The position numbers and the translations under genes were made by a program. Positions 10,210 to 16,504 of a DNA stretch of 64,000 bases are shown here, one piece after another; the first letter of the stretch is position 1; every line of letters starts with the position of its first letter. The notes below the pieces were generated by a model that did no database searches, was not told the origin of the DNA, and saw nothing but the letters and a program-made list of their open reading frames with translations. The DNA is from Oceanimonas doudoroffii (GTDB taxonomy: Bacteria > Pseudomonadota > Gammaproteobacteria > Enterobacterales > Aeromonadaceae), in assembly GCF_002242685.1 (NCBI RefSeq), contig NZ_NBIM01000006.1:101241-165240 (forward strand). Direction: 5' to 3'.

Positions 10210-11763
10210 ATGAGAAAAAATCTTCCCGTCACCAGCAACGAACGTACCTTTGATGCCGCCGAGCGGCTGATATCCACCACGGATGTGCATGGCACCATCC
10301 TTCACTGCAACGATGCCTTTGTGAGCGTCAGCGGTTATACCCGCGAGGAACTGATTGGTCAGCCCCACAATCTGGTGCGTCACCCGGACATGCCTCCCCT
10401 GGCGTTCAAAATCATGTGGGAGCACCTCAAGACGGGACAGCCCTGGATGGGACTGGTGAAAAACCGTTGCAAGAACGGCGACTATTACTGGGTTGATGCC
10501 TATGTCTCGCCCATCACCAAGGATGGCAACGTGGTTGGCTTTGAGTCGGTGCGCTCCTGTCCCGACCGGGAAGACGTGGCCCGGGCCGAACGGCTGTATG
10601 CCCGTTTGCGGGCGGGCAAGGCCTTGCCCGGAAAGGGTCTGTTGAGCCGGCCCTGGCCCTGGCTGGTGGCGGCGCAGGTGCTGGTGGCGGGCCTGTTGCT
10701 GGGCGGTTACCGCAATGAGGGCATTGCCCTGGAGCTGTTATCGCTGGCCGCCTTTGGCGGCTGGGTGAGTTACCTGCACGGCCAGGCCCTGAAGCGCCTC
10801 GATGTGCTGCTGGGGGGCGCCTTTCGCCATGAACTGGCCATGCATACCCACAGCCGGGATCTGGGCATGCTGGGTCGGCTCAAGGTGGGTATTCGCAGTG
10901 AAAAGGCGCGGTTGATGGCCATTATCACCCGTATTGAAGACGCCGCCGCCAGGGTCAGTAGCCGTTCCGACAACGGCCATGTGCAGTCCCGCCAGGCACG
11001 GGAGGGCATGGCCAGCCTGCGTCAGGAAACCGAACAGGTGGCCACCGCCATGAATGAGATGAGCGCCACCATCAATGACGTGACCGCCCATGTGCAGGAA
11101 ACCGCCAGCCAGGCCGACAACGCCAGCCGCATGGCCCGTGAAGGCCTGGAAGTGGCCGGGGTGACCCGGGAAGCCATTGCCGAGCTGAAGAACACCGTCG
11201 ACGACATCAGTGGTGAGGTGCAGCGGCTGGCGGAGAAGACCGCCGGCATTGCCCAGGTGGCCAATATGATCGAGGTGATCTCGGAGCAGACCAACCTGCT
11301 GGCGCTTAATGCCGCCATCGAGGCCGCCCGTGCCGGCGAGCAGGGCCGGGGCTTTGCGGTGGTGGCCGATGAGGTACGCCAGCTGGCGGGACGCACGCGG
11401 GAATCCACCGGGGAGATTCAGCGCATCGTGGCGGACCTGACCGACAGGGCGAGCTCGTCGGTGGACGTGGCCGAGCAGGGCAAGATCAGTGCCGAGTCGG
11501 GACTGGCGCGGGTAGTGGAAACCGAAAACACCCTGAGTGGCATCGCCTCGGCGGTGTCCCGCATCGCCGACATGTCGATGCAGATGGCCACGGCGGTAGA
11601 GCAGCAGGCGCGGGTGGCGGAAGACATCAATCAGCAGGCGGTGAACATGGCCAGCCTGTCGGACGCGGGCCTGTCCCAGGCGGATTCTGCCGCCGGCAGC
11701 ATGGAAGGGCTGCAGTCGGTGGCCACCGAGCTGCATGATCTGGTGGTGCGGTTGAAGCGCTGA
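10210..11763 (+). CDS. aer: Aer-type PAS-domain chemoreceptor
   Basis: A 517-residue methyl-accepting chemotaxis protein. Residues about 15-125 form an Aer-type PAS domain ([24 protein letters not shown], then [14 protein letters not shown]), which in Aer holds FAD and senses redox/oxygen indirectly. Two hydrophobic segments at about 145-190 form the membrane anchor without a periplasmic domain. The cytoplasmic part ends in the signalling tip with [20 protein letters not shown] and [18 protein letters not shown], which contacts CheA/CheW. AAGGA seven bases before the ATG supports the start. It is a single gene, and no che genes are nearby. Confidence 0.93.
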
Positions 11764-11795: not shown

Positions 11796-11978
11796 CTATT
11801 TATCTTCGCGCTCGGTATAGGCGCGACAGAGCCGGCGTAACACCGGAAGTTGCCGTTGAAAGTTGTTGCAGGCGCTGCACATCAGGGTGTGCAGCCGTAG
11901 CGACAGTTTTTCCTGAGAAGTGAGCGGCCGTTCCTGGCTTTCGGACATCAGCCGGGTGGCTTGGCGGCATTTCAGCAT
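11796..11978 (-). CDS. Small zinc-finger anti-sigma factor
   Basis: A 60-residue cytoplasmic protein carrying an HxxxCxxC motif (residues 30-37, HTLMCSAC), the zinc-binding signature of ZAS-type anti-sigma factors. Cysteine pairs of this kind often react to oxidants or metals. The start ATG 11978 has AAGGAG seven bases upstream, and the gene overlaps the sigma-factor gene by 7 bases, implying coupled translation. There is no membrane segment. It is inferred to hold the adjacent ECF sigma factor inactive until stress. It is at the short end for the family, and the pairing rests on motif plus position. Confidence 0.78.
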   Translation of the reverse strand: MLKCRQATRLMSESQERPLTSQEKLSLRLHTLMCSACNNFQRQLPVLRRLCRAYTEREDK

Positions 11979-12559
11979 GTGCAGTCTCCTTGCCGTTGCC
12001 AGCGGTTCTCCAGGCACTCACGCAGCCGCAACCGTGCCCGGTAAAGCAGTACATTGAGATTGCTGACGGTGAGCGTCAGCTCGGCGCAGATCTCCGGGCT
12101 TTCCAGCCCCACGAATTCCCGCATCATGAATGCCCGGCCCTGGCGGGCCGGCAGGCCGTCGAGGCAGGCCTCGAAAATGTGCCAGAAACGCTCGTCTTCT
12201 AGGCTGTCGTCGGGAGAACTCCAGCGCACCGGCCGCTCCTGTTTGTTCCAGTGGCCCCTCTGGTTGAACAGGGTTTCTTCAAATTGCTGATCGGCTTCGT
12301 TGTTCAGTTCGCTGACGGTGGTCAGGCGCTGACGTTTGCGGATCTGATCGGCAATCTTGTGCTTGAGAATGGCAAACACCCAGGTTTTGTAGGCGGAGCG
12401 ACCGTTAAAGGAGTCGGCATAACGAAAGGCACCGAGCATGGCTTCCTGCACTGCGTCCTCCGCCAGATGGGAATCTTGCAGCTGCAGGGTGGCGAATTTC
12501 AGCATTTGCAGCCGCAGTTGTTCGTTCAGTTCAGGGGCAAACTCCGAGGGTGCAGCCAT
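11972..12559 (-). CDS. ECF RNA polymerase sigma factor
   Basis: A 195-residue sigma-70 family protein with region 2 (LRLQMLKFATLQLQDSHLAEDAVQEAMLGAF in two parts, then YKTWVFAILKHKIADQIRKR) and region 4 (GLPARQGRAFMMREF, then ICAELTLTVSNLNVLLYRARLRLRECL). The type resembles the RpoE-like sigma factors encoded next to DUF692/DUF2063/DoxX genes. I chose ATG 12559 because AAGGA sits six bases upstream; ATG 12604 lacks a site. It lies 37 bases after the DoxX gene in the same direction, so it may amplify its own operon. Confidence 0.9.
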   Translation of the reverse strand: MAAPSEFAPELNEQLRLQMLKFATLQLQDSHLAEDAVQEAMLGAFRYADSFNGRSAYKTWVFAILKHKIADQIRKRQRLTTVSELNNEADQQFEETLFNQRGHWNKQERPVRWSSPDDSLEDERFWHIFEACLDGLPARQGRAFMMREFVGLESPEICAELTLTVSNLNVLLYRARLRLRECLENRWQRQGDCTC

Positions 12560-12596
12560 GACCGTCCTTTTCAGGGTCTTATGGTTTACCTGCAAG

Positions 12597-13079
12597 TTAA
12601 TCACAATGCTTCCTCGTTAGCCAATGATCCAGCGACACCACGCCGGGGCCGCGGGCGATCAGCAGCAGCAGCACCGTGGCCCAGATGCCGTGCAGCGGCC
12701 AGGCGCCGGGGTAGACCAGCACCTGAATCACCAGGGTCATGCCCAGCAGTGCCAGCGCCGAAAACCGAGTGGCCAGTCCCAGCAACAGCAGCAGCGGAAA
12801 CAGGTGTTCGGCGGTGGCCGCTAGCAGGGCGCCCAGCTCGGGGGAGATCAGCGGCAAGCGGTATTCTTCCCGAAACAGAAACACTGCCGACGGATTCAGA
12901 CTTGGCCATCCCAGGCTGAACTCGCCGCTGACGATATCGAGGCTGAAGTTGTTCACCTTGGTCTGGCCCGAGCGCCAGAACACGGCGGCGATGGAAAACC
13001 GTCCCAGCAGGGCGATCAGGGTGTGGGGCAGGCGGTTGAGCAAGCCGCGCAGCCGGTAGCACTGTTGGGTCAGGCTCAT
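12597..13079 (-). CDS. DoxX family membrane protein of the bufferin-type operon
   Basis: A 160-residue integral membrane protein with four hydrophobic helices (for example LIALLGRFSIAAVFWRSGQTK, then the C-terminal LLLLIARGPGVVSLDHWL). The DoxX signature with RSGQTKV and the PG..WPLHG..A segment are visible. The start ATG 13079 overlaps the DUF2063 stop by four bases (ATGA), so the two are translationally coupled. In gold/copper-induced gig/buf operons a DoxX protein is the fourth member; its biochemical role there is unsettled. Confidence 0.88.
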   Translation of the reverse strand: MSLTQQCYRLRGLLNRLPHTLIALLGRFSIAAVFWRSGQTKVNNFSLDIVSGEFSLGWPSLNPSAVFLFREEYRLPLISPELGALLAATAEHLFPLLLLLGLATRFSALALLGMTLVIQVLVYPGAWPLHGIWATVLLLLIARGPGVVSLDHWLTRKHCD

Positions 13080-13837
13080 AAGGCATCTCCTTGCGTAATA
13101 AATCCGGTCACGGCCCGCCATTCCAGCAGGCTCTGCAGCATGGTCGCGGGGTTGAAGTCTTCCTGCTGTTGCAGGCTGTGCTCCAGGGCGGTTCCCAGTG
13201 GTGCGCCCGCCCGCAGGCATTCAATAAAGGTGGCATCGGCGCCAGTGAGGCGCAGCAGCCTCACCGACAGGCCAATACGCAGCACCAGTACGTTTTCCGG
13301 CGTGGCGGTGCGAATGTCCTGCAGGCGGCCTTCGCCATGGTGGGCCAGCCAGATTGAAGCCACCGCAAAGGCCGAGCGCAACAGGGCGCAGGCGGGTGTC
13401 AGTTGCAACGCCTGGCGGGCCAGACGTTCCGGATCGGCCAGCAACGCCTGCAACCGGTCGGCGGCTACCGGCTCGGCGTCGGCGGCATGCTGCACCCGCT
13501 GCACCAGCAGCTCCAGTCGAGCCATGTCGGCCAGGCAAGGCACACTGGCGGCCGGGGCAAAGCCGTCAATAAAGTCGGGCAGGGTGACGCCATAGTCGGT
13601 CAGCAGCGGTGATGATGGCGGTGACTGTTCGATATAAATACCGGCCATGGCGTTGAAGAAGTCGTCGCCCACCAGTTGCCGGCACACCGGAAACTGGGCC
13701 GCCAGTGCCTCGGTGAGCGACACTCTGACATTGTTGCGGTAGACATTGAAGCGGGACCGGCCACCGGGGTGCCCGGTCAGGCTGGCGGGCACCGGTAGAT
13801 CCGCATTGAGCAGGGCGCTGGCAAAGTCATCATGCAT
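13076..13837 (-). CDS. bufC: DUF2063 MNIO partner protein (BufC-like)
   Basis: A 253-residue protein with the DUF2063 N-terminal domain (GGRSRFNVYRNNVRVSLTEAL, FPVCRQLVGDDFFNAMAGIYI) and a C-terminal putative winged region. Members accompany DUF692 oxidases and are thought to bring the precursor peptide to the enzyme. It overlaps the DUF692 gene by 8 bases and the DoxX gene by 4, with AAGGAG before its ATG, so the complex is probably made in fixed proportion. The name follows the bufferin operons. Confidence 0.88.
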   Translation of the reverse strand: MHDDFASALLNADLPVPASLTGHPGGRSRFNVYRNNVRVSLTEALAAQFPVCRQLVGDDFFNAMAGIYIEQSPPSSPLLTDYGVTLPDFIDGFAPAASVPCLADMARLELLVQRVQHAADAEPVAADRLQALLADPERLARQALQLTPACALLRSAFAVASIWLAHHGEGRLQDIRTATPENVLVLRIGLSVRLLRLTGADATFIECLRAGAPLGTALEHSLQQQEDFNPATMLQSLLEWRAVTGFITQGDAL

Positions 13838-14729
13838 GGCGGTGCTCCTTGTTGCTGGCGTGGTGGTCGGCCTCGTGCAGCAGTCGGTGAATATGGCCGG
13901 TTTCCGCCAGCAACTCGTTCAGGGCGGGCACATTGTTGTCCCGTTCCAGCAGGGTGGGCAGGGGGCCGGTTCGTTCCAGCAACCCTTGATACAGTGCCCA
14001 TACCGGCTCGGCCACCGGGCTGCCATGATGGTCGATTAACAGGGCGGCGCCGCTGTCATCGGCCTGCTCGTCAAAACCGGCCAGGTGCACCTCACCCACC
14101 TGGTCCAGGGGCAGGGCAGCGATATAGTCTTGTGCATCAAGCCGGTGGTTAACTGCCGTGATATAAACGTTGTTTACATCCAGCAGCAGGCCGCAGCCGC
14201 TGCGGCGTACGGCCTCGCGAATAAAGTCGGCCTCCATGAGGCTGGATTTGGAAAAGCGCACATAGGTGGCGGGATTTTCCAGCATAATGGGGCGGCCCAG
14301 CACCTGCTGCACCCGGTCGATGTGATCGCACAGCCGCTGCAGGCTGGCGGGAGTGTAGGGCAGAGGCAGCAGATCGTTGAGAAAACGGCCGCCGTGCCCG
14401 GCCCAGGCCAGGTGCTCCGACACCGCCTCGGGTTGGTAGCGCTGCACCAGCCGGGCCAGCCGGGCCAGGTGATCTTCGTCGAGCGGTTCCATGCCCCCCA
14501 GCGACAGCCCCACACCATGCACCGACAGCGCATAGTGTTCACGAATGCGGCTCAGGTAATGATGGCGAGGGCCGCCATCCACCATAAAATTTTCTGCGTG
14601 AATTTCCACAAAGCCCAGAGAAGGGCGTGTGGTCAGTATCTCTTCGGCGTGCTGCAGCTTAAGCCCCAGTCCCGCCGTGGCTGGCAAGCGGGAGGCACCA
14701 GTGCCGGCACGATAAGGGTGATGGTCCAT
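13830..14729 (-). CDS. bufB: DUF692 multinuclear iron oxidase (BufB-like MNIO)
   Basis: A 299-residue TIM-barrel protein of the DUF692/MNIO family: GLGLKLQHAEEIL, VEIHAENFM, LSVHGVGLSLGG, SEHLAWAG, LLLDVNNVYITA, EVHLAGF and the final LERDNNVPAL supply the His/Asp/Glu/Asn residues that bind two or three iron atoms. MNIO enzymes oxidise cysteine residues of precursor peptides (oxazolone-thioamide, thiooxazole and related groups). GAGGAGG precedes the ATG. It lies 15 bases after a DUF2282 precursor gene, its inferred substrate. Confidence 0.93.
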   Translation of the reverse strand: MDHHPYRAGTGASRLPATAGLGLKLQHAEEILTTRPSLGFVEIHAENFMVDGGPRHHYLSRIREHYALSVHGVGLSLGGMEPLDEDHLARLARLVQRYQPEAVSEHLAWAGHGGRFLNDLLPLPYTPASLQRLCDHIDRVQQVLGRPIMLENPATYVRFSKSSLMEADFIREAVRRSGCGLLLDVNNVYITAVNHRLDAQDYIAALPLDQVGEVHLAGFDEQADDSGAALLIDHHGSPVAEPVWALYQGLLERTGPLPTLLERDNNVPALNELLAETGHIHRLLHEADHHASNKEHRHA

Positions 14730-14744
14730 GGTGCCTCCTCGGGA

Positions 14745-15044
14745 TCAGGCGCCGACTTCTTCAAACGCTTCCAGCTGACCCTTGCCGGTGGGCGAGGTGG
14801 GGGAATCGGTTTCCAGGCAGGTGCCGGCGGGAACCAGTTTCCAGGCATTGCCCTGATGGTCGGTTTTTGAAGTACCGGCGCAGGAGGTACCCGGGCCGGC
14901 GGCGCAGTCATTCTGGCCGGCGAGGGCAACGCCGTAGCATTTTTCCATGTCGCCGGAATGGTTGTCTGCCATGGCGGGGGCGGAAGCGGCCAGGGCGGTA
15001 CCCAGGGCAAAGGCAAGGGCGGTGGCAGTGTTGGCTTTGGTCAT
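14745..15044 (-). CDS. bufA: DUF2282 bufferin-type precursor peptide
   Basis: A 99-residue exported protein: signal peptide of about 26 residues (ending AMADN) and a core with four cysteines at 36, 47, 55 and 76 in the DUF2282 pattern ([29 protein letters not shown]). In bufferins an MNIO enzyme converts core cysteines to modified heterocycles so that the exported peptide binds copper in the periplasm. The tail after Cys76 (about 23 residues, acidic) is non-conserved. It is the first gene of the operon. The metal it protects against is unknown here; copper or gold is inferred from the family. Confidence 0.9.
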
Positions 15045-15145
15045 GATGAATATCCTTCTGTTAAGTCCATTTGTTAAGGAAAGCCCGGCATTTGCCGTCT
15101 TTCACTATCTTGGTCTGGTTCATCGAAGGCGTTATTACAACTTTT
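15045..15145 (-). promoter_or_regulatory. Leader/promoter region of the bufferin-type operon
   Basis: About 100 bases precede the precursor gene on the minus strand. A TGTAAT-like element near 15130-15135 is a possible ECF -35 box, but I find no clear -10 at the right spacing. A small CGGC-AAAT-GCCG hairpin lies near 15090-15110 and could end the upstream transcript. AAGGA stands close to the ATG. Confidence in the detailed elements is low. Confidence 0.35.
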
Positions 15146-16504
15146 TTATGCTTTTTTCTTCTGGGGGATTTCTTCCACCTCCACGATTTTGGAGCGACTC
15201 ACCACCACCTTCCAGCGTTGCAGCACCGGCGGCTTCAGGCCCTGCACCTCGCGGGTGATCAGGTTGAACAGGTAGCGCCGTTCCACCGGCTGGCGTGACA
15301 CCTGATTTTCCTTCAGCTGGTAAACATGATGGGAGCCTTTTTCCATCAGCCGGGCCAGCATGGTCAGATCCAGCTGCAGGCTTTCCCGGGTCTGCTCATA
15401 GCCGGTCAGGAAGCGGGTGGGCAACATGCGCGAGTGACTGCCGTAGTGCAACACCACTTCTTCCCGCTGGCTGACGTTGGCCCGACGAGCGGCGCGCACC
15501 TCGGCGGGCACGCGGTACGGGCGCTGATAGTCGAACCATTCCAGCTGGCGCCCCACCAGCTGGGTGCTGTGCACATCAAAGTATTGTCGCCGCCATTTGG
15601 GACGGCCCCGGCGCAGCCAGCGCCACAGGGTATTGCGCAGGTCATCCTTGAACAGCTCGCGCAGGGCGTAGAGCACCGCCAGGGCGAGGATCACCATCAT
15701 GGACAGGCCGCCCAGGGTTTCGCGCACCTCGTAGGCGGCCAGCGACACCGTGGTCATCACCACGGCGGTGACCACCGCCTTGAGCAGTTTCTGTTCGCCA
15801 CCCCCCAGCTCCCGCGTGCGCTCCTTGAGGGTGACCGGATATTCGATCAACCGGCGCAGCAGCCGCATCTTGTTGGAGATGCGTGACAGCGAATCGCTGG
15901 CGTGGGCGGTATTGTACTTATTGTCGATGCGATGCTGGCGCTCAATGGCGCAGACCTCCAGCAGCAGCGACTTGACGGTCTTGTAGTCACCGTTGCGGGG
16001 CAGGTGGGCCACCAGCGACAACAACCGCTGCTCGGTAAACCAGGACACATAGTTGTCGATATTGGTGTAGTACTTGCGCAGGGTGTCGTCGTTCGGTACA
16101 CGGCGGCGCAGCCGCCGCAGAATGTCCTGGGCCAGGGACACCACGGCTTCCACCTCTTCCTGGGACACGGCTTCCATGCGGTTGCGCAGATCGTGGCAGG
16201 ACTGTTCCAGCCCCACCACATACTGGTAGCCGTACAGGCTGAGGCTGACCCGGTATTGTTCGGGGGTGAGCTTGCCCCGTTCCGCCAGCCGGCTGTGCAC
16301 CAGGGGCAGGTGGGGGCGATCGCTGAAGTAGGTGCGGGTGCTGTGTATGGCGTTGTGATAGAAGCCGTCTTCCGGCAGCACCTGGCTGTTGAGGCCCAGC
16401 TCGCCGGGCACGAACAGGTAGAGATCGAGTCGGTGCTCGGTGGCCTCGCGCAAAATGCGCGACAGCTTGAGTGAATGGCCGTCCTTGCGTTCAGCGGTGA
16501 TCAC
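15146..16504 (-). CDS. Unrecognised 452-residue membrane protein
   Basis: I do not recognise this family. The start is GTG 16504 (no ATG near the ORF start) with only a weak ribosome site. Residues 1-240 are soluble, helical and charge-rich (LRNRMEAVSQEEVEAVV, RRRVPNDDTLRKYYTNIDNYV). Two hydrophobic helices at about 243-290 (AVVTAVVMTTVSLAAYEV and GLSMMVILALAVLYALREL) form a hairpin anchor. The C-terminal half is basic, ending PQKKKA. A tryptophan- and arginine-rich segment (WRWLRRGRPKWRRQYFDV) follows the anchor. It sits upstream of, and in the same direction as, the bufferin-type operon. A membrane-attached regulator or scaffold is only a guess. Confidence 0.8.
   Translation of the reverse strand: MITAERKDGHSLKLSRILREATEHRLDLYLFVPGELGLNSQVLPEDGFYHNAIHSTRTYFSDRPHLPLVHSRLAERGKLTPEQYRVSLSLYGYQYVVGLEQSCHDLRNRMEAVSQEEVEAVVSLAQDILRRLRRRVPNDDTLRKYYTNIDNYVSWFTEQRLLSLVAHLPRNGDYKTVKSLLLEVCAIERQHRIDNKYNTAHASDSLSRISNKMRLLRRLIEYPVTLKERTRELGGGEQKLLKAVVTAVVMTTVSLAAYEVRETLGGLSMMVILALAVLYALRELFKDDLRNTLWRWLRRGRPKWRRQYFDVHSTQLVGRQLEWFDYQRPYRVPAEVRAARRANVSQREEVVLHYGSHSRMLPTRFLTGYEQTRESLQLDLTMLARLMEKGSHHVYQLKENQVSRQPVERRYLFNLITREVQGLKPPVLQRWKVVVSRSKIVEVEEIPQKKKA

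Follow-up and report, generated by a model that had tools for sequence, protein, structure and literature searches.

We examined a stretch of 64,000 nucleotides from the genome of Oceanimonas doudoroffii (contig NZ_NBIM01000006.1; hereafter the window), in which six closely packed genes on the minus strand (11796..15044) combine a bufferin-type peptide cluster with an extracytoplasmic function (ECF) σ factor and a zinc anti-σ factor (ZAS). All six genes passed the curated Pfam or NCBIfam cut-offs that we used to judge gene families. The first gene, bufA (14745..15044), encodes a 99-aa precursor of the BufA1 type (DUF2282; PF10048, 5.1e-25, 87.7 bits, cut-off 22.4). After a gap of 15 nt it is followed by bufB (13830..14729), encoding an MNIO (DUF692) maturase of 299 aa (NF050167 MNIO_BufB, 378.4 bits, cut-off 310; PF05114, 8e-106). 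The third gene, bufC (13076..13837), encodes a DUF2063 partner protein of 253 aa (PF09836, 3e-25, 88.8 bits, cut-off 27.2) and overlaps bufB by 8 nt and the following doxX gene (12597..13079; 160 aa; PF07681, 4.7e-15, 56.4 bits, cut-off 23.6) by 4 nt. These four genes are an ordinary bufferin cluster, and the bufferin/gig-type arrangement named in the original prediction, which had been made from the DNA letters, is right. So is the presence of an ECF σ factor and a ZAS at the distal end. The σ factor gene (11972..12604; TIGR02943, 244.9 bits, cut-off 162.2) also scores above the cut-off of NF009196 (290.1 bits) and is the only one of five TIGR02943 matches in the O. doudoroffii genome that exceeds the TIGR02943 cut-off. 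If it starts at GTG 12604, the protein has 210 aa and the gene overlaps doxX by 8 nt; the alternative start at ATG 12559, where the ribosome site looks better (AAAAGGACGG), gives 195 aa and a gap of 37 nt. The last gene (11796..11978) overlaps the σ factor gene by 7 nt and encodes the 60-aa anti-σ factor with the pattern C4 plus H30xxxC34xxC37 (NF052368 antisigmaE, 77.1 bits, cut-off 50).

The upstream regions of bufA and of the σ factor genes of O. doudoroffii and its relatives share the pattern [TC]GTAA[GTC]AA-N14/15-[AC]G[AT]C, also given as TGTAAKAA-N14/15-CGACY. In O. doudoroffii the operon has a candidate promoter of this kind, with a -35-like and a -10-like element in the form TGTAATAA-N15-AGAC; it is located at 15113..15139 on the minus strand, beginning 95 nt ahead of the bufA start. 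Among all 26 DUF2282 loci in 61 relatives, the motif was found upstream of bufA in 11/11 genomes with an anti-σ factor match and in 0/15 genomes without one. These 11 positives, from which the pattern was read off, comprise ten genomes from a single genus plus another from the same family; 11 of the 15 negatives were looked at for the first time. Stand-alone σ factor genes are likewise preceded by the motif in 13 of 14 pairs, a count that omits three weak anti-σ factor matches and uses the pattern derived from the same positives. Dinucleotide shuffles gave 0.0007 (bufA) and 0.0004 (σ factor genes) chance matches per sequence. Because the pattern was derived from the bufA and σ factor positives, the out-of-sample results weigh more. 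A search of 65 loci from named genomes, 8 of them in the same genus, gave 70 matches for the motif, whereas its reversed form gave 6. When only loci outside the genus are counted, the strict motif precedes the σ factor gene in 16/55 and bufA in 2/6 rows (Glaciimonas and Thermomonas); these wider counts include some partial or doubtful frames, among them two doubtful BufA calls at L202. The bufA upstream regions of L168 and L169 were scored as misses since their open reading frame calls start upstream of the motif, and the same species (G013 and G007) do score. The distance from GTAA to CG is 22 nt and fits the Neisseria σE motif GTMAGBWTT-N12/13-CGTCTAAH reported in PMC2893595. Taken together, the bufA motif and the stand-alone σ factor motif lend support to the proposal that the pair may switch the whole unit, including itself.

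We then considered the distribution of these genes in the 23 genomes of the GTDB genus, whose named relatives are Oceanimonas, Oceanisphaera, and Zobellella. DUF2282 is found in ten of them, the anti-σ factor in 18, and the six-gene operon, always in the same order, in seven (G000, G002, G003, G005, G007, G009, and G013). The arrangement is therefore not due to chance. In the other six genomes with the six-gene operon the motif is also found ahead of bufA. In three further genomes (G001, G008, and G012) the buf operon has four genes and the pair is located elsewhere, and bufA keeps the motif that precedes the σ factor gene. A first tblastn labelling had suggested that doxX is absent from these three genomes, which was ruled out by a hidden Markov model (HMM) search that found it in all of them; they are therefore counted as four-gene operons. 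The pair occurs without DUF2282 in eight genomes, DUF2282 without the pair in none, and five genomes have neither.

In a σ factor tree of 76 rows, the seven σ factors of the six-gene operons form one clade (100/99) within the clade of the genus σ factors (100/99), beside and after the stand-alone σ factors. The association between σ factor and buf genes requires eight changes on this tree, with at least five forced by well-supported branches. After relabelling of G027, whose buf operon adjoins the pair in convergent orientation, and of L202, whose BufA calls are doubtful, and after removal of three long rows, we again counted eight changes, of which at least seven are forced. Both trees were midpoint-rooted and gave long-branch warnings. 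Most likely, these trees reflect a relocation of the pair to the 3' end of the buf operon in a single ancestor within Oceanimonas, and separate events that brought pair and buf genes together in other lineages (L174, L181, L186, L212, L222, and L226, all taken from the 65 loci of named genomes).

To the left of the operon, the anti-σ factor gene is followed by a gene for a PAS-MCP receptor on the plus strand (10210-11763); since this gene is convergent, the unit ends with the anti-σ factor. No membrane anti-σ factor of the NrsF type (DUF1109/NrsF) is encoded in the cluster, where the σ factor is followed by the 60-aa ZAS and then by the convergent PAS-MCP gene. On the other side, 101 bp remain for the promoter between bufA and a gene (15146-16504) whose product has no family match above cut-off. 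This 452-aa protein also precedes bufA in eight of the nine other genus genomes that have bufA, the exception being G002; the copies in these eight genomes are 74-96% identical. The split buf operons of G001, G008, and G012 adjoin the same upstream gene as the six-gene operon.

The precursor carries cysteines at positions 36, 47, 55, and 76 and 23 residues past Cys76, as originally counted. Its N-terminus is hydrophobic with AMA before residue 27, and by eye it is a putative signal peptide. Several close relatives carry the NCBI name BufA1, and the sole NCBIfam match is to BufA2, below cut-off (26.1 of 60). A homologue search, in which 7965 of 8000 scored sequences passed E ≤ 0.001, was used to check the C-terminal tail in the best 120. 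Four core cysteines are present in 118 of these and five in two, and the number of residues past the fourth core cysteine is 18-28 in 120/120 (median 23). The idea of the original prediction that the tail is extra was therefore rejected: its length is normal for the family. In acidity, the tail of the O. doudoroffii protein (net 4) exceeds the median (net 1), and a net value of at least 3 occurs in 30 of the best 120 homologues. BufB aligns with the solved DUF692 protein PDB 3bww over residues 19-284 in two stretches (E 7.5e-42). Buf1 partner proteins combine DUF2063 with an RRE part, and in BufC it is the DUF2063 domain that was recognised. BufC reaches 47.7 bits against NF050145 HvfC (cut-off 142), and DoxX is also below the cut-off of NF050144 HvfX. 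Chemistry and metal had been described as not known. This holds for the O. doudoroffii peptide; for the family, thiooxazoles and copper have been assigned (PMC12452194; PMC13097082). By analogy with these relatives, from which we infer both metal and peptide chemistry, the O. doudoroffii peptide probably binds copper.

The σ/anti-σ factor pair, judged by sequence, resembles Neisseria σE/MseR and Haemophilus RpoE2/HrsE. C4, H30, C34, and C37 of the anti-σ factor are invariant in 17/17 aligned sequences, and the same four residues are present in Neisseria MseR, for which Cys4, Cys34, and Cys37 are reported to matter for activity (PMC2893595). Neisseria NMB2140-2145 is described as a cotranscribed and autoregulated operon of six genes, running from DoxX to σE and MseR, with msrAB as the other σE target (Hopman et al. 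2010, PMC2893595). Like this operon (NMB2140-NMB2145/NGO1948-1943), the O. doudoroffii unit comprises six genes in one operon with DoxX, an ECF σ factor, and a ZAS. The two also share a DUF2063 partner protein (NGO1945) and, in the candidate promoter of O. doudoroffii, the distance from GTAA to CG. They differ in that the DoxX gene NMB2140 is the first in Neisseria, whereas doxX is the fourth in O. doudoroffii, and in that the gonococcal peptide is of the EGKCG type (gonophorin, PMC13097082) and not DUF2282. In Haemophilus influenzae, RpoE2 is reported to be held by the 67-aa HrsE and to control msrAB and a DoxX/MNIO operon after exposure to hypochlorous acid (HOCl) (Nasreen et al. 2021, PMC7907618). 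A small soluble anti-σ factor and a σ factor in charge of an MNIO operon with DoxX are thus described there as well, but the Haemophilus σ factor gene lies with msrAB and not with the MNIO operon, and the precursor is an oxazolin (EGKCG). Both the gonococcal and the Haemophilus peptide are of this type and carry 5-thiooxazoles according to PMC13097082.

The order DUF2282-MNIO-DUF2063-DoxX with an ECF σ factor nearby has been described for Caulobacter (sigF/nrsF with CC3254-3257, PMC3511200) and Cupriavidus (gigPABT with rpoQ-rsqA, PMC10304878). Unlike in O. doudoroffii, the anti-σ factors there are membrane proteins (NrsF/DUF1109; RsqA is predicted to be membrane-bound), and the σ factor genes form a separate or divergent unit. 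In general, the DUF2282 clusters with a σ factor pair that are described in PMC12452194, PMC3511200, and PMC10304878 have NrsF or another membrane anti-σ factor. The main text of PMC12452194 contains no mention of zf-HC2, zinc, or MseR, and among the matches listed in our searches of the openly licensed literature no report joins a soluble zinc anti-σ factor to a DUF2282 operon. The peptide-making parts predicted from the genes show no difference from the bufferin-1/captophorin class of ribosomally synthesized and post-translationally modified peptides (RiPPs) as described in PMC12452194 and PMC13097082 (four-Cys DUF2282 precursor, BufB, BufC, and DoxX). The novelty implied at the outset stands in part. 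MNIO operons switched by a σ factor were already known from Neisseria and Haemophilus; the combination seen here is a variant. Because σE/MseR and RpoE2/HrsE already control MNIO operons together with msrAB, and the described pairs adjacent to DUF2282 have a membrane anti-σ factor, we regard it as a variant combination and not as a new kind of system. A bufferin-1 operon with a built-in switch of the MseR/HrsE type combines known parts in a new way. Also new are the putative promoter and its link to the pair, the set of candidate regulon genes, and the indications of a move of the switch into the operon.

To judge by the motif, some further genes for envelope protection may be under the control of the same σ factor switch. 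In the O. doudoroffii genome, the candidates are bufA, a 63-aa peptide, a VTT-pyridine-nucleotide oxidoreductase, a sodium:solute symporter, and a DUF417 protein. The secreted two-Cys peptide has the motif upstream in 12/12 close versus 1/18 diverged copies in the genus; loci were available for 30 of 36 matches, and the line between close and diverged copies was drawn afterwards. Its copies (L091:6674-6871 in G000, L086:3477-3668, L088:4892-5083, and others) have 63-65 aa, look secreted, share two conserved cysteines near the C-terminus, and match no Pfam family at E ≤ 0.01; a further metal or redox peptide is possible. For the oxidoreductase, the motif is present upstream of 10/17 genus copies and absent in the sole pair-less genome; outside the genus it precedes 5/20 similar frames (5/22 with those of the same genus). 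In this protein a VTT membrane domain is fused to a pyridine-nucleotide disulphide oxidoreductase (loci L150 in G000 and L136-L152); the L086 copy has 718 aa. One of two msrAB loci examined (Tolumonas) carries the motif, and the σ factor pair adjoins an MsrA-MsrB gene in G024 and Tolumonas. The symporter gene has the motif upstream in three genus genomes (L082:1501-3027 in G000, L086:18102-19502, and L090:1243-2722), and the DUF417 gene (L092:4746-5359, G000:C1) is followed by a small second gene.

Two other groups of genes were noticed. A DUF3641 radical SAM gene (L056:4704-5756, L231-L247) directly follows the stand-alone pair in several relatives; in Oceanimonas it is unlinked to the pair and lies elsewhere in the O. 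doudoroffii genome. We rejected it from the motif-bearing set within the genus, where the motif precedes 1/17 copies; outside the genus the motif precedes 4/9 (4/13 with those of the same genus). Exported-looking proteins with long NPCA/SPCA cysteine repeats are encoded in four genus members without DUF2282 (L086:10465-11493, L093:8284-9285, L094:2690-3634, and L095:2528-3511), with the strict or a loose motif upstream. The one in L086 matches a cytochrome c domain.

We consider it likely, with good confidence, that the six genes make up a bufferin operon of the Buf1 type with a σ/anti-σ factor switch of its own, acting on the buf genes and on itself. At rest, the 60-aa zinc protein would bind the ECF σ factor. 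Stress by thiol oxidants or thiophilic metals would strike the Cys/His zinc site and release the σ factor, which would then start transcription at the TGTAATAA-N15-AGAC promoter ahead of bufA. The products would be the precursor, BufB/BufC, DoxX, and more of both σ and anti-σ factor, which would amount to positive feedback with its own brake. BufBC would convert the core cysteines to thiooxazoles, and the peptide would leave by the Sec pathway and buffer periplasmic copper. The same σ factor probably drives the oxidoreductase and the secreted two-Cys peptide, and perhaps the DUF417 protein and the symporter. The families, the operon packing, the zinc-ligand pattern, the conserved motif, its co-occurrence with the pair, and the regulon candidates are directly visible in the genomes; we infer the reading of the motif by this σ factor and, from relatives, the kind of inducer.

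Some observations weigh against this interpretation. The support for control of the O. doudoroffii operon is at the sequence level. In the operon motif (15113-15139), the -10 half reads AGACC and not the usual CGACY, and in the wider set, which includes the 8 loci of the same genus, the strict motif precedes the σ factor gene in only 20/63. Within the O. doudoroffii genome the pattern alone is not enriched (five matches versus seven for the reversed control), and for this reason it was considered only together with conservation; of the five matches, one lies inside a coding frame (L084). Furthermore, the two PMSR (MsrA-type) loci of this genome have no motif match, and BufC has no sequence match to any solved partner protein in the PDB comparison.

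Could the pair instead be a passenger, brought to the 3' end of the buf operon through a rearrangement and cotranscribed with it, while the operon is controlled by, say, a copper-sensing regulator or the housekeeping σ factor? The three genomes with a four-gene buf operon behind the same upstream gene and the pair elsewhere would agree with such a history, and gig of Cupriavidus is reported to be expressed without rpoQ (PMC10304878; PMC13192273). But bufA keeps its motif in just these split genomes, the motif tracks the pair across the DUF2282 loci, and 10/10 genus genomes with DUF2282 have the pair, so that we regard a mere passenger as distinctly unlikely. Even less probable, and indeed very improbable in our view, is that the DUF2282 peptide stays unmodified here as a plain four-Cys periplasmic protein. 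Modification is not readable from sequence, but BufB scores above the curated cut-off for bufferin maturases and aligns to the solved DUF692 protein, and both bufB and bufC follow bufA in 10/10 genus genomes with bufA.

A further question concerns the signal, and is thus a choice within the self-switched operon and not an alternative to it. The pair may answer reactive chlorine or thiol oxidants rather than copper, with the bufferin serving mainly in oxidative protection of the envelope. We give this somewhat less than an even chance. The HOCl response of the RpoE2-dependent operon and msrAB in Haemophilus (PMC7907618) speaks for it, as do the redox-type partners of the motif, namely msrAB in Tolumonas and the VTT-pyridine-nucleotide oxidoreductase. 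However, bufferins are reported to aid growth in excess copper and gig operons to respond to gold and copper (PMC12452194; PMC5413113), and Neisseria σE not to be induced by the oxidants tested in that study (PMC2893595). More speculative, and in our estimate rather unlikely, is a wider picture in which pairs of the MseR/HrsE type head a thiol/metal envelope regulon that is widely conserved across the Gamma- and Betaproteobacteria. This regulon would comprise bufferins, MsrAB, the VTT-oxidoreductase, the DUF3641 radical SAM protein, and secreted cysteine proteins (the 63-aa peptide and the NPCA-repeat cytochromes). The zinc site of the ZAS would itself be the sensor of Cu(I) or HOCl, the pair would have moved repeatedly beside bufferin genes, and the secreted peptides would be further periplasmic metal buffers.

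Bufferins are a large and recently named class of copper-handling peptides, and their control is little understood. With a DUF2282 bufferin, a soluble zinc anti-σ factor, a readable promoter, and few candidate genes, the marine genus Oceanimonas makes the question of the inducer testable, and it offers a setting for this question other than Neisseria or Haemophilus.

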